Assembly: GCA_013824715.1 (NCBI GenBank)
Contig: PNOH01000005.1
Span: 1-64,000 of the forward strand
Length of the DNA: 64,000 nt
Source: Odoribacter sp.
Lineage (GTDB): Bacteria > Bacteroidota > Bacteroidia > Bacteroidales > Prolixibacteraceae
Direction: 5' to 3'
Positions 41,455 through 49,241 of the stretch are shown here, one piece after another. The notes beneath the pieces were generated by a model, which saw nothing but the letters and a program-made list of their open reading frames with translations, made no database searches and was not told where the DNA came from. The translations under genes were made by a program, and so were the position numbers. Within the stretch, counting starts at the first letter, position 1. Every line of letters begins with the position of its first letter.

Positions 41455-41640
41455 TTACTCCGATTCAAAAACTACTCCATCCTTTTCCGCATCTATAAAC
41501 TCATAATGCAAGGTGCGATGCAAGCCTTCGGATAAAGTAAACGGAGCTTTAAAACCGGAACTGTGTATTGAGGTCAGGCTTGTCTATATAATTAAACAAA
41601 CGGTAGCCAAGCTTTTGGGTTTCGATGCAATGTTTATAAA
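41455..41640 (-). pseudogene. C-terminal remnant of an NAD-dependent sugar epimerase
   Basis: Own minus-strand translation: NIASKPKSLATVCLII*TSLTSIHSSGFKAPFTLSEGLHRTLHYEFIDAEKDGVVFESE*; in-frame TAG at 41584-41586 and truncated at the junction with the 41634 gene. Confidence 0.5.
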
Positions 41641-42089
41641 ATTCCGTGGGTTCTCAATATTTCGGCCAGATCGGCGTGTTTTTTCGAGTATTCGCGAAGT
41701 ACCCGAATTAGATTTGAACTTTTTACTTCAGCTTCGGTCGATTTATCCAATGCAGGTTGTAAAGCTGTTCTGCGGTCCCAAATCGTATAACCGAGAATAA
41801 ATAAGATTAAAGCAACAATTACTCCTTGAAGCCAAAAAATATAATCAATCCTCGCATTGACAGCTTCGAATTTTATATCCATTCTAGTTTCAAGAGCTTC
41901 AATCCTTGCATTGACAGATTCGAATTTTACATCCATTTTGACCTCAAGTGCACTTATTTTGGCATCGGTAAGAATGGCGCGGTCACGGTCGGCTAAGGTA
42001 TAAGGCACTACAACCTGCTGCTCCTGTGCCAAAGCCGGAAGGCAATTCAAGGTGAGTAATAACAAACTGATAGATACAAGCGTTTTCAT
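41634..42089 (-). CDS. Secreted/membrane coiled-coil protein with 18-aa internal repeat
   Basis: Signal peptide; KMDVKFESVNARIEALETRMDIKFEAVNARID then TM. Confidence 0.7.
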   Translation of the reverse strand: MKTLVSISLLLLTLNCLPALAQEQQVVVPYTLADRDRAILTDAKISALEVKMDVKFESVNARIEALETRMDIKFEAVNARIDYIFWLQGVIVALILFILGYTIWDRRTALQPALDKSTEAEVKSSNLIRVLREYSKKHADLAEILRTHGIL

Positions 42090-42125: not shown

Positions 42126-42147
42126 GAACACAGATGACACAGATTAA
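42126..42147. repeat. ACACAGATGACACAGATTAA word repeat overlapping fcl stop codon
   Basis: GAACACAGATGACACAGATTAA; tandem ACACAGAT words. Confidence 0.6.
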
Positions 42148-43316
42148 ACTAATATTTGTTGGTTTAAGTACCAGTTATACATTTTTTGAATACCGTATTC
42201 AATTTCAATTTTGTGATGCCAGCCCAGGGAGTGCAGTTTGCTTACATCGGTTAGTTTGCGCATGGTGCCATCGGGTTTTGAAGTGTTGAACACCAGGCTG
42301 CCTTTGAACCCAATGGTCTCTTTTATTAGTTCAGCCAGTGCTTGAATGCTGATTTCTTTTCCTGTGCCAATGTTGATGTGGGTGTTGCGGGTTTCTTTTG
42401 TTAGTGCGTCATTGCGAGAGAGCGTAGGGAACGAAGCAATCTTCTCGCGAACAGATTGCTTCACTTCGTTCGCAATGACGTGCTGGAAGTCGATGTTCTC
42501 CATGATGAAGACACAGGCGTCGGCCATCTCTTCACTCCAAAGGAATTCGCGCATGGGTGCGCCGGAGCCCCAGATTTCGACAGAATAGCCCCCCTCAATC
42601 CCCCCAGACGGGGGGAAGATGCCGTATTTCTGCAATTTCTGCAAAATATCTTCAGGTGCGCTATTGCCATTAATATCTTCAATGGGCCGCCTGTTCAGGT
42701 CTTCATGAAGAGCATCCCAGTTATTTTCTTCGAGACATTTTCCGAGATACATTTTCCGGAGCATGGCTGGCAGAACATGGGAGGTTTCGAGGTTGAAATT
42801 ATCATTAGGGCCGTATAGGTTTGTTGGCATTACCGAAATAAAGTTTGTGCCGTATTGAATATTATAGCTCTCACATAGTTTAATCCCGGCAATTTTTGCA
42901 ATGGCATAAGGTTCGTTGGTATATTCCAGTGGCGATGTCAATAAGTACCCCTCCTTCATGGGTTGTGGTGCGTCACGAGGATAGATGCATGTACTTCCGA
43001 GGAAAAGGAGTTTCTTAACTTTATTCAAATAGGCTGCATGTATTACATTATTTTGAATCATCAGGTTTTCGTAAATGAACTGACCCCGATAAGTATTATT
43101 GGCAACAATACCACCTACTTTGGCAGCCGCAAGGATGACATACCCGGGTTTTTCGGCTTCAAAGAATTGATTGACGGCTTTGGTGTCCATCAGATCCAAT
43201 TCGTTGATGGTTTTTCCGATCAGATTGATATAGCCTTTCGATTGAAGGGTTTTCCAAAGGGCAGAGCCTACAAGGCCAAGATGCCCGGCGACATATATTT
43301 TAGAGTTCTTGTTCAT
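42144..43316 (-). CDS. fcl: GDP-L-fucose synthase (with two in-frame repeat-derived insertions)
   Basis: KIYVAGHLGLVGSALWKTLQ; FLGSTCIYPRDAPQPMKE; HINIGTGKEISIQALAE; start at MNKNSK. Confidence 0.95.
   Translation of the reverse strand: MNKNSKIYVAGHLGLVGSALWKTLQSKGYINLIGKTINELDLMDTKAVNQFFEAEKPGYVILAAAKVGGIVANNTYRGQFIYENLMIQNNVIHAAYLNKVKKLLFLGSTCIYPRDAPQPMKEGYLLTSPLEYTNEPYAIAKIAGIKLCESYNIQYGTNFISVMPTNLYGPNDNFNLETSHVLPAMLRKMYLGKCLEENNWDALHEDLNRRPIEDINGNSAPEDILQKLQKYGIFPPSGGIEGGYSVEIWGSGAPMREFLWSEEMADACVFIMENIDFQHVIANEVKQSVREKIASFPTLSRNDALTKETRNTHINIGTGKEISIQALAELIKETIGFKGSLVFNTSKPDGTMRKLTDVSKLHSLGWHHKIEIEYGIQKMYNWYLNQQILV
42407..42480. repeat. Palindromic repeat (GTCATTGCGA...GCAATGACG family) inside fcl
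   Basis: 10-bp terminal inverted repeats CGTCATTGCG/CGCAATGACG plus nested GAAGCAATCT/AGATTGCTTC. Confidence 0.92.
42588..42618. repeat. Palindromic C/G-run repeat inside fcl (CCCCCCTCAATCCCCCCAGACGGGGGGAAG)
   Basis: CCCCCC-AGAC-GGGGGG hairpin; encodes FPPSGGIEGGY. Confidence 0.85.
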
Positions 43317-43329
43317 ATTTTTTGTTTGT

Positions 43330-43357
43330 CCACAAATTACACGAATAAACACGAATT
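43330..43357. repeat. Left inverted flank of GxxExxY gene
   Basis: CCACAAATTACACGAATAAACACGAAT; 24/27 to reverse complement of 43750-43776. Confidence 0.85.
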
Positions 43358-43359
43358 TA

Positions 43360-43737
43360 TTATCTAATGACACGTTTCCATTCGAGGCTGGTTCCTCCAA
43401 AATTGATTAAAAGACCAAGTCTAAAGCCAGTTGCTTTCAGATAATTAAGCACCTGACTGATATGAGTTGGACTTAATTCACTAACTGCTTTTAGTTCAAC
43501 GATAATTTTACTGTAACAGATAAAATCCGGAATATATTCCTTTTCCAGAATCTTATCCTTATACCTTATTTGTAACGGGTACTCCCTGACCGAAGGAATA
43601 TTTTGCAGTTCGAATTCATATTCCAATGCTTCCTGATAGACCGCTTCTAAAAATCCGTTTCCCAATTGATTATGAACCTCTATGCAGGCCTTGATAATGG
43701 TAAAATTTTCTTCCTTGTAAAGGATTGTCTCATTCAT
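43360..43737 (-). CDS. GxxExxY protein (PD-(D/E)XK superfamily)
   Basis: [13 protein letters not shown] (GxxExxY) and [16 protein letters not shown] (PD...ELK). Confidence 0.93.
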
Positions 43738-43747
43738 TATAAAATGA

Positions 43748-43776
43748 TTATTCGTGTAAATTCGTGTAATTCGTGG
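43748..43776. repeat. Right inverted flank of GxxExxY gene
   Basis: TTATTCGTGTAAATTCGTGTAATTCGTGG. Confidence 0.85.
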
Positions 43777-43782
43777 ATGAAA

Positions 43783-44973
43783 TTATTCGAAATAATTAAG
43801 TGTCCGATACCCCCCCTCGCGCAACCAGGCCTCTTTTTGCATCAGTTTAATGTCCGACTGCATCATCTCCTCAACAAGTCCTTTTAAGTCATACCCGGGT
43901 TTCCAGCCTAGTATTGTATTCGCCTTTGTTGGGTCGCCAATCAGCAGATCAACTTCGGTAGGACGGAAGTATATTGGGTCAACTGACACGATTACCCCGT
44001 CATTCCGGCGAAGGCCGGAATCTCCTCTTTCAAAGCTAATGCGATTCTTGATTCCCTCCAAATATTGCTCTCCAACTTTTTCACCGAAGAGTTTTTCATC
44101 CACTGACATCAGGTAACCTTTTTCGTCAGCTCCTTCGCCTGTGAAACTTATTTCCAGCCCTATTTCGGCGGCAGCTAACTTGATAAAATCGCGTATGGTA
44201 GTGGTAATCCCTGTTGCAATCACATAATCATCGGGTTGTTCTTGTTGAAGCATTAGGTACATGGCGCGGATATAGTCTTTCGCATGGCCCCAGTCGCGTT
44301 TGCTCGAAAGATTGCCCATAAAGACTTTATCCTGCATACCAAGTGCTATACGGCTTAAAGCACGGGTTACTTTACGGGTTACAAATGTCTCTCCACGGAT
44401 TGGCGATTCGTGATTAAACAGAATTCCGTTGCTGGCGTGCATTTTATAGGCTTCGCGGTAGTTTACCGTAATCCAGTAAGCGTACATTTTTGCCACAGCA
44501 TAAGGCGAACGGGGATAAAAAGGAGTTCTTTCGCTTTGGGGAACTTCCTGAACCATACCGTACAACTCCGATGTTGAAGCCTGATATATCCGTGTTTTTT
44601 CTGTTAGCCCCAACAAGCGTACTGCTTCCAGAATACGAAGTGTTCCCAGGCCGTCAGCATTGGCTACATATTCGGGAGTTTCGAAACTAACTGCTACATG
44701 GCTCATGGCAGCCAGATTATATATTTCATTGGGCTGAACTTCCTGGATGATACGCGTAATATTCATACTGTCGGTAAGGTCGCCGTAATGGAGAATTAGA
44801 TTCCGGTTGTCAACATGCGGATCCTGGTAAAGGTGATCAATACGATCCGTATTAAAAGAGGATGCACGCCGTTTGATACCGTGTACCAGGTACCCTTTTT
44901 TAATCAGGAATTCGGCGAGGTAGGCACCGTCTTGTCCGGTGATGCCGGTGATGAGTGCTATTTTTTGTATCAT
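43783..44973 (-). CDS. gmd: GDP-mannose 4,6-dehydratase (with in-frame repeat-derived insertion)
   Basis: [71 protein letters not shown]. Confidence 0.96.
43996..44025. repeat. Palindromic repeat CCCGTCATTCCGGCGAAGGCCGGAATCTCC inside gmd
   Basis: 8-bp stem ATTCCGGC/GCCGGAAT, GAAG loop. Confidence 0.93.
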
Positions 44974-45070
44974 GGTAATTGTTTTCGAGTTCTTACTGAA
45001 AATCAATTGGAGAAATTTTAAAAAAAATCTTTGTAAATAAAGGGAGGATCAGTTTAAAGTTGGTATTTAA

Positions 45071-47404: not shown

Positions 47405-47409
47405 AATAA

Positions 47410-47492
47410 ATACGAATTACGCGAATTTTAACGAATTACACGAATTAAAAAATCAGTGGTCATCCGTAACATCAGTGTTATCTGTGTACTAA
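47410..47492. repeat. Composite intergenic repeat copy A
   Basis: ATACGAATTACGCGAATTTTAACGAATTACACGAATTAAAAAATCAGTGGTCATCCGTAACATCAGTGTTATCTGTGTACTAA. Confidence 0.85.
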
Positions 47493-47496
47493 TTGT

Positions 47497-48636
47497 TTAT
47501 ACTTTTTCGAAATAGGTGTCCGGATCATTCGCATCAAAATGCTCGTTGATCCAGAAAATGGTGTATAATTCTTCTTCGCCAATATTGGTGATGTTGTGGG
47601 TGTACCAAACGGGCATATCCACAAACGATGGTTCGTTGCCATCCAGATCAAAAGATAATATTATATCCGTCCCAATGCGTCGGAGTTCAATTCTGGCTTT
47701 GCCTTTGATTACTGCAAACCTTTCAACCTTATGTGTGTGAAAATGATTTCCTCTGGTTATTCCCGGAATAGTTGTAGAAAAAGAAACCTGACCTCCACTG
47801 TTTAGTTTGACTGTTTCAACAAACGAACCTCGATCATCGGTATTCAATTTTAGTTTGAATGGATAGAAAGCGGAGTGGTTGATGTAAGTTAAAAAAGTTG
47901 TAAATAAATCCCTTTTTAAAGGTGTGTCTAATGAAGGTATTTCTCCCTTTTCAAAATAATCTGCTTTGAACGATTCCAGGATCTTTAGTAAACTAGAAAC
48001 ATTTAATTCTATAGTATGCTGAATGGTGATTTCTTCGATTACACAATCGTTGGAGTGATTAGCGCTAATAAGCTCAATCCTTTCGATAAAATGATTTACC
48101 AATTGTGATACATAAATCAGTTTGACCTCACCATTAATTTCAATTTTGGGTGTTTCGTTGTGGGTTAACTGATGACAAAAGGTAGCTATTACAGAATTAT
48201 AGTATGGATTTCCGAAAGGTCCAAATACATTGGGAATTATGAAACCGGAAAATTGTGCTGAATTTTTATTGGCCCATTGTTCAAGTAGTTTTCTCCCTTC
48301 TTTCTTTGATTTTCCATACAAGTTGTCGCGTTCTTCCTGGGTGCTCGATGAAAACAGGATGTGTGGCGTGGAGCTGGTTGCTTCACAGGCAGCAATTAGC
48401 TGTTTAACGAGTCCAATATTGGTTTGAAAAAGTACCTCGGGATCGTTGTGACGATTCATGGCTGCAAGATGAACCACGGCATCACAATTTTGTACAAACG
48501 CTTTCAGTTTATCTTCATCCGAAAAGAATGCATCTTCAAAAGGGATTCGTTCAAATCTATCGGGATATAATCCAAGGGTGTTGTATAGATGGGTTCCTAC
48601 AAAACCTGACTGACCGGTTATTCCTATTCTAATCAT
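47497..48636 (-). CDS. CapF/FnlB-like bifunctional SDR-cupin reductase/epimerase
   Basis: IGITGQSGFVGTHLYN; C-terminal cupin TRGNHFHTHKVERFAVIKGKARI. Confidence 0.93.
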   Translation of the reverse strand: MIRIGITGQSGFVGTHLYNTLGLYPDRFERIPFEDAFFSDEDKLKAFVQNCDAVVHLAAMNRHNDPEVLFQTNIGLVKQLIAACEATSSTPHILFSSSTQEERDNLYGKSKKEGRKLLEQWANKNSAQFSGFIIPNVFGPFGNPYYNSVIATFCHQLTHNETPKIEINGEVKLIYVSQLVNHFIERIELISANHSNDCVIEEITIQHTIELNVSSLLKILESFKADYFEKGEIPSLDTPLKRDLFTTFLTYINHSAFYPFKLKLNTDDRGSFVETVKLNSGGQVSFSTTIPGITRGNHFHTHKVERFAVIKGKARIELRRIGTDIILSFDLDGNEPSFVDMPVWYTHNITNIGEEELYTIFWINEHFDANDPDTYFEKV

Positions 48637-48644
48637 ATTTTGAA

Positions 48645-48727
48645 ATTACGAATTGCACGAATTTAAACGAATTTAACGAACTAAAAGATCAGTGATCATC
48701 TGTAAAATCAGTGTTATCTTTGTTCTA
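48645..48727. repeat. Composite intergenic repeat copy B, homologous to copy A
   Basis: TTACGAATTGCACGAATTTAAACGAATTTAACGAACTAAAAGATCAGTGATCATCTGTAAAATCAGTGTTATCTTTGTTCTAA; ungapped alignment to copy A with ~13 mismatches by hand. Confidence 0.85.
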
Positions 48728-48731
48728 AATG

Positions 48732-49181
48732 TTATTTGTGTTCCAATATTTCATCCCAGTCCAACCACCAACCAGAAGGAAAATGTTTCTTTTCATTGTC
48801 CGAATCTTTGAGGTTCATGTCAGAGAAGATCATAAGCTCCGAGTTGGCTTCTAAAGCTTTTAATCCGTTGGCATATCCTTTGGGAACAGAAATGATTTCA
48901 CTATTTTCTGCTGAAAGGATATGATATTCCGGAATTAAATCTTTGGAGGGATTCTCAAAGTCATCAATCTTAACCCAGGCAACAACGAAACTACCTGAAA
49001 TAGGATAGAAGTATTTTTTCTCGAACTGGTGACCCTGCCAGGCACGAACAACGGAGGTGTCAGGATGTTTAATGAAATAGAATCGTTTGATATCATCGAA
49101 CCGGAAATCATTGACAAATCGCATGGTTCCGCGATCATCCGAGAATATACCTCCTTCAATTATTTTTGGTTTTTCTTTCAT
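48732..49181 (-). CDS. Cupin-type sugar epimerase (dTDP-4-dehydrorhamnose 3,5-epimerase / WxcM-like)
   Basis: RGTMRFVNDF; VRAWQGHQFEKKYFYPISGSFVVAWVKID; VPKGYANGLKAL. Confidence 0.75.
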   Translation of the reverse strand: MKEKPKIIEGGIFSDDRGTMRFVNDFRFDDIKRFYFIKHPDTSVVRAWQGHQFEKKYFYPISGSFVVAWVKIDDFENPSKDLIPEYHILSAENSEIISVPKGYANGLKALEANSELMIFSDMNLKDSDNEKKHFPSGWWLDWDEILEHK

Positions 49182-49187
49182 AGTAAA

Positions 49188-49220
49188 CGTATTTCACGAA
49201 TAAAAGCGTATTTCACGAAT
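49188..49220. repeat. Perfect 14-bp direct repeat CGTATTTCACGAAT, 19-bp period
   Basis: 49188-49201 and 49207-49220. Confidence 0.9.
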
Positions 49221-49241
49221 TTTCAATCTGGGTCCTATTCC

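Follow-up and report, generated by a model that had tools for sequence, protein, structure and literature searches.

An inserted GxxExxY cassette with word-array ends between gmd and fcl, and gene-less word arrays in Bacteroidota

The cassette between gmd and fcl and its protein

The window, i.e. the whole stretch of 64,000 nucleotides analyzed here (contig PNOH01000005.1 of Odoribacter sp.), carries a small GxxExxY gene between gmd and fcl, and this gene is bracketed by two short inverted arms (Table 1). The left arm (43330-43356, CCACAAATTACACGAATAAACACGAAT) and the reverse complement of the right arm (43750-43776, CCACGAATTACACGAATTTACACGAAT) match at 24/27 positions, and a repeat search of the window returned the pair as an inverted repeat of 28 nt with 89% identity. 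Both arms are arrays of seven-base words (CACGAAT and, once, CACAAAT), three per arm, which face inward. The bracketed feature measures about 447 bp and is tightly packed: the GxxExxY ORF leaves 3 bp between its stop codon and the left arm and 12 bp between its ATG and the right arm, and the arms are 13 bp from the fcl ATG (43316) and 6 bp from the gmd stop codon (43783). The inverted match, the ORF and the distances reported in the preliminary description of the locus were thus all recovered upon re-measurement. An Rfam search of the window gave a tRNA as the sole match.

Table 1. Features of the gmd–fcl region and gene-less arrays in the window
Feature	Position	Strand	Remarks
One-sided CACAGAT array abutting fcl 3' end	42130..42153	+	same spacer holds a second cassette in congeners
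fcl, GDP-fucose synthetase	42144..43316	-	downstream boundary of the spacer; same orientation as cassette gene
Left terminal array	43330..43356	+	three words, CACAAAT-CACGAAT-CACGAAT, toward gene; outermost word CCAC
GxxExxY gene	43360..43737	-	125 aa; TIGR04256 / PF13366
Right terminal array	43750..43776	-	CACGAAT x3 toward gene; 24/27 inverted match with left array
gmd, GDP-mannose 4,6-dehydratase	43783..44974	-	upstream boundary of the spacer
Gene-less unit filling its spacer	47408..47497		inward arrays, ACGAAT x4 (+) and CAC(T/A)GAT-type x4 (-)
Second copy of gene-less unit, next spacer	48644..48733		84% identical over 90 nt
Degenerate one-sided ACGAAT-type array, next spacer	49186..49222	+	

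Both boundary genes contain in-frame palindromic repeats, at 42413-42482 and 42588-42615 in fcl (CGTCATTGCGAG...AATGACG and CCCCCCTCAATCCCCCCAGACGGGGGG) and at 43996-44023 in gmd (CGTCATTCCGGCGAAGGCCGGAATC), and these inserts resemble coding-region palindromic elements. The fcl product of the window has 389 aa; in several congeners a stop lies inside fcl. Downstream of fcl, where fkp sits in congeners, an ORF for a small secreted-looking protein (41634-42089) contains a 53-bp internal tandem duplication at 41845-41951.

The product of the cassette gene is a clear member of its family: it matches the TIGR04256 profile with 148.7 bits (E 8e-44; cut-off 35) and the PF13366 (PDDEXK_3) profile with 140.8 bits (E 3e-41; cut-off 22). 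All 53 sequences compared have E31, D71, E81, K83 and Q95, and nearly all have Y99, the constellation E, D, E-x-K, Q-x3-Y of a RecB/Cas4-like PD-(D/E)XK nuclease. The fold agrees: the best PDB match to the AlphaFold2 model (pLDDT 95.2, pTM 0.88) is 4ic1 (SSO0001, a Cas4 protein; E 3.6e-4), and other near solved folds are those of LHK-Exo, lambda exonuclease and MGME1. The earlier assignment of an intact GxxExxY ORF to the PD-(D/E)XK_3 superfamily is borne out by the profile matches as well as by the invariant catalytic residues. Judging from sequence and model, the protein is a 125-residue RecB/Cas4-type core, apparently active, in which we see no obvious extra domain. The literature searched reports neither DNA binding nor DNA cleavage for any GxxExxY protein.

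Word arrays around GxxExxY genes

The source genome (4.6 Mb in 85 contigs, Bacteroidota) holds seven GxxExxY genes, and inverted word arrays surround 7/7 of them, with words that differ between cassettes: CACAGAG (here the inverted repeat spans 35 nt and is nearly perfect), CACGAAT and CACAGATT (two copies each), CACAAAG/CACGAAG, and CACTAAG. To each cassette we assigned a score, the best ungapped inverted match between its 250-bp flanks, with 12 or more counted as a pass; the controls were 404 windows taken from these loci at shifted positions. The gmd–fcl cassette scored 20.5, whereas the controls reached 13.5 at most (median 8.5). Among Bacteroidota cassettes, 77/96 passed versus 6/404 control windows (MWU p 5e-40), as did 56/80 named loci from GTDB genomes versus 2.2% of controls; the sampled loci being mostly the best-scoring members of the family, these percentages describe well-conserved members. 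Only 1/26 loci passed for Gp49/HigB, another family of small accessory genes that served as a control. Inverted word flanks are thus enriched at GxxExxY genes relative to elsewhere, the comparison that the preliminary description had put forward as a check, and chance is rejected as the source of the inverted arms, the seven bracketed copies of the source genome included. About 20% of GxxExxY genes fell under the score threshold.

Outside the phylum, 15/15 loci that could be scored passed, drawn from three cyanobacteria and one Ignavibacteria MAG, and a single planctomycete locus and a single Treponema MAG locus carry the same words. A plasmid search returned eight records with GxxExxY, a phage search no GxxExxY match. 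The cassette belongs to a compact type of inserted unit that is very widespread, accompanied by gene-less miniatures and apparently not recognized before: the literature searched names GxxExxY only in passing and draws no link to flanking repeats, and a text search for the repeat words found none of the strings (subscription papers lay outside the search, which makes priority uncertain). Note that some loci (L165, L162, L164, L319, L321) have strong inverted arms with another grammar, built of GATTT/CTGAATCAGGATT-like words rather than CRCNRAK.

The words of GxxExxY cassettes fit the consensus CRCNRAK, recur once per 9-10 bp and are mostly inward-facing (530 versus 220 in the opposite sense). 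AAC precedes the outermost word in 30% of the arrays versus 2% for inner words, the end signature being TTAACC-RCNRAK followed by CRCNRAK words spaced by roughly a helical turn. The single repeat family of the preliminary description hence holds as a common grammar and not as one sequence, the word set differing from cassette to cassette. When mapped onto the protein tree, word position 7 (G or T) requires 7 changes versus 16.0 (minimum 12) in 300 shuffles, and position 2 requires 15 versus 26.5 (minimum 18 in 300 shuffles); the signal at position 5 is weak (21 changes, shuffled minimum 20). The words are thus coupled to the protein clade, a pattern that vertical inheritance of whole cassettes could partly explain. 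Since the words follow the protein tree, they point to word recognition by the GxxExxY protein, though cassette co-inheritance contributes.

Insertion, turnover and dispersal of the units

The occupant of the gmd–fcl spacer varies widely among congeners: the spacer is empty in L176, L179 and L182 (4, 11 and 17 bp), and it holds a full cassette with other words in L185 and L200, a cassette with an internally deleted gene in L178 and L187, and a gene-less array pair in L173, L180 and L184, the words of the last being of the PF05635 type (see below). On the fcl tree, this distribution amounts to at least 8 state changes among 13 taxa, and empty L182 is sister to filled L185, so that close relatives display the empty and the filled site. 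The order gmd–GxxExxY–fcl, whose possible ancestry the preliminary description had raised, is therefore not ancestral, congener spacers being empty or otherwise occupied, and the proposal that the repeats are the ends of a unit of about 447 bp gains support.

The neighboring fcl–fkp spacer behaves alike: it is empty in four congeners, five others have GxxExxY cassettes of two word types there (GCGAAT and CACGGAT), and one has a PF05635 cassette. The latter (L184, 2640-3300) has heptamer-type GGCGAC words and is nested in GxxExxY-type CACGGAT arms. In L178, local alignment revealed cassette sequences 80-86% identical in two neighboring spacers whose flanking genes are unrelated, one of the two copies being internally deleted; in L184, a full PF05635 unit occupies one spacer and a gene-deleted one the neighboring gmd–fcl spacer. 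Units are thus inserted, rapidly turned over and copied at gmd–fcl and neighboring spacers. We saw no target-site duplication or transposition intermediate, the empty and filled gmd–fcl spacers being too diverged for base-exact junctions.

The window also contains arrays without a gene, and the word pattern does occur at 47.4, 48.6 and 49.2 kb, where the preliminary description had placed them. The units at 47.4 and 48.6 kb, paired by local alignment, each fill their spacer. They differ from the cassette ends in that their left half consists of ACGAAT words and their right half of CAC(T/A)GAT words, and hence they are not simple copies of these ends.

Genome-wide statistics rest on pattern searches for paired words in 200 Bacteroidota genomes, 102 gene-positive and 98 gene-negative. 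Paired CACAGAG words were found in 51/102 gene-positive versus 4/98 gene-negative genomes (p 2e-14), or 36/63 versus 3/43 at the genus level, and paired CGCAAAG words in 61/102 versus 18/98, with up to 95 matches in a genome with four GxxExxY genes. The words of the sampled cassettes predict the array words of the genome (rho 0.57, n=41, in a count that includes the cassettes' own arms). Gene-less arrays are therefore associated with the presence of the gene across genomes. Most sampled arrays are gene-less and are arranged in pairs, facing inward or outward, or in tandem.

Three genomes (G176, G025, G172) have 56 to 95 paired CGCAAAG matches and 4-6 GxxExxY genes each. In L337, L338, L340, L346 and L342, array pairs face outward with their outer ends meeting in the middle, which looks like two ends joined or like a miniature type of its own. 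In L334-L336 (G126), array sets recur in tandem along the same strand, about 245, 320 and 115-137 bp apart.

In our view, the feature of about 447 bp is probably a compact selfish insertion unit, whose Cas4/RecB-like protein would recognize its own words and drive copying into operon spacers. Several molecules of the protein would sit on the words of their own element, which are in phase with the helix; they would pair its ends and act on the DNA at that place. Host replication and repair would then copy the unit into other operon spacers, and gene-less miniatures would be copied in trans by the same route. The GxxExxY protein itself would thus move the repeats, in line with what the preliminary description had suggested. 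The four gene-negative genomes with CACAGAG arrays and the roughly 20% of GxxExxY genes under the score threshold are evidence to the contrary. By contrast, a locus beneficial to the host (a defense nuclease or an autoregulated addiction unit), with the arrays as operators or self-recognition marks instead of ends, would suit the invariant catalytic residues and a nuclease fold akin to those of exonucleases and Cas4. We hold this to be highly improbable, because the arrays lie on both sides, inverted and with a terminal signature, appear and disappear together with the gene at a single site, and proliferate without it; moreover, the PADLOC defense library gave no convincing match.

A selfish unit of this kind would work like RAYT/REPIN systems, in which a gene is flanked by inverted repeats, gene-less pairs occur in extragenic space and the repeat type is tied to the resident protein (PMC3116915). 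The likeness extends to the single gene with inverted repeats and to the many dispersed gene-less inverted pairs tied to the resident protein type, all found here. However, the window protein has a PD-(D/E)XK Cas4-like core and is not a Y1/HUH tyrosine transposase, PF13366 / TIGR04256 being the only family in the unit, and its repeat unit is a direct array of 7-nt words with a period of 9-10 and not a palindrome. The absence of an HUH transposase and of a palindromic unit excludes it from RAYT/REPIN. Units of this kind point to another way, not based on HUH, in which REPIN-like miniature elements may arise. MITEs and classical insertion sequences likewise have terminal inverted repeats and non-autonomous miniatures, but the present unit is without a known transposase, its ends are variable words, and no target duplication was detected at the diverged junctions compared.

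PF05635 cassettes, heptamer repeats and the RNA question

Genes of PF05635 (the 23S-rRNA IVS / four-helix-bundle protein, an unrelated family) are bracketed likewise, in 19/30 cases across the phylum and in 21/22 cases in the source genome and three cyanobacteria, versus 1/198 control windows. Their words have a strict period of seven, versus 9-10 for GxxExxY words. The phenomenon is therefore wider than the GxxExxY nuclease, and, as PF05635 is not a recognized nuclease family, both kinds of cassette could be moved by a factor from elsewhere. The arrays would then be spread by that other factor, by slippage or by recombination, and the GxxExxY and PF05635 genes would be passengers that recombination between similar arrays copies from spacer to spacer. 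An architecture common to two unrelated protein families, the nesting of PF05635 arrays within GxxExxY-type arms in L184 and the word types common to neighboring spacers of one operon are all as such copying would have them. Still, it strikes us as rather unlikely, because the word period is specific to the family (7 versus 9-10), the words track protein clades, and the occurrence of gene-less arrays in a genome hinges on the gene.

GxxExxY and PF05635 units may be two branches of an undescribed selfish super-class, in which a small protein would read lineage-specific words at both ends, with a period of 9-10 nt for the Cas4-like nuclease and of 7 nt for the four-helix bundle. Such a super-class may also be the source of the cyanobacterial heptamer repeats, the TAACTGA arrays, the Bacteroidota arrays of the CACAGAG/CGCAAAG type and the rRNA intervening sequences. 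We offer this combined proposal tentatively, as an open possibility that falls somewhat short of being probable. The cassettes themselves supply a candidate cognate protein for abundant short intergenic word repeats of open origin, and they suggest what two protein families, both very common and multi-copy, may do; the coupling of word and protein makes the idea of recognition directly testable.

In three cyanobacterial genomes (L347-L363), PF05635 genes are bracketed by heptamer arrays (TCAGGAG, GGGGAGT, ATTAGTT) that have the form of the long-known heptanucleotide repeats of cyanobacteria. These dispersed repeats, the cyanobacterial STRRs, and the TAACTGA arrays resemble the arrays described here in being short intergenic arrays of direct words, patchy across distant phyla and of unexplained origin. 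They differ in having been described as orphan, whereas the heptamer arrays found here in three cyanobacteria surround PF05635 genes. As for the TAACTGA arrays of Beggiatoaceae, Cyanobacteria and Bacteroidetes, their mechanism was not evident and no mobile element was named as their source (PMC4679880).

Finally, the cassettes show a strong orientation bias: of those with ORFs called on both sides, 71/92 are co-oriented with both neighbors and 4 are against both, as compared to 9 with versus 4 against in the Gp49 controls. The cassettes thus live in sense inside operons, an orientation that would let their gene be expressed from a host promoter. The bias would also be expected of an RNA-level element like the 23S rRNA IVS, in which an RNA stem is cut by RNase III, the gene sits in the loop and spread is passive. 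Three both-sides changes between the arms of L172 and L173, the same bracketed architecture of the rRNA IVS protein PF05635, and the Coxiella IVS, with its 28-bp terminal stem/repeat and tandem GACAGAT heptamers before the S23p ORF (PMC4990558), point in the same direction. We nonetheless regard an RNA-level origin as unlikely. Indeed, arm mismatches comprise 164 sense-strand wobble pairs versus 177 antisense (p 0.52), and this lack of a sense-strand excess speaks against selection for a stem in the transcript; the wobble count thus gave the RNA-stem explanation no support. Moreover, the gene-less units of the window carry different words on their two arms, and many arrays are one-sided, outward-facing or tandem.

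With the 23S rRNA IVS, a unit of about 430 nt, the window unit shares a terminal inverted repeat around a small sense ORF, and PF05635 cassettes outside rRNA also have heptamer arrays, as does the Coxiella IVS. By contrast, the window unit lies between gmd and fcl and not in an rRNA gene, bears no sign of RNA-stem selection, encodes a PF13366 and not an S23p/PF05635 protein, and repeats its words with a period of 9-10 nt.
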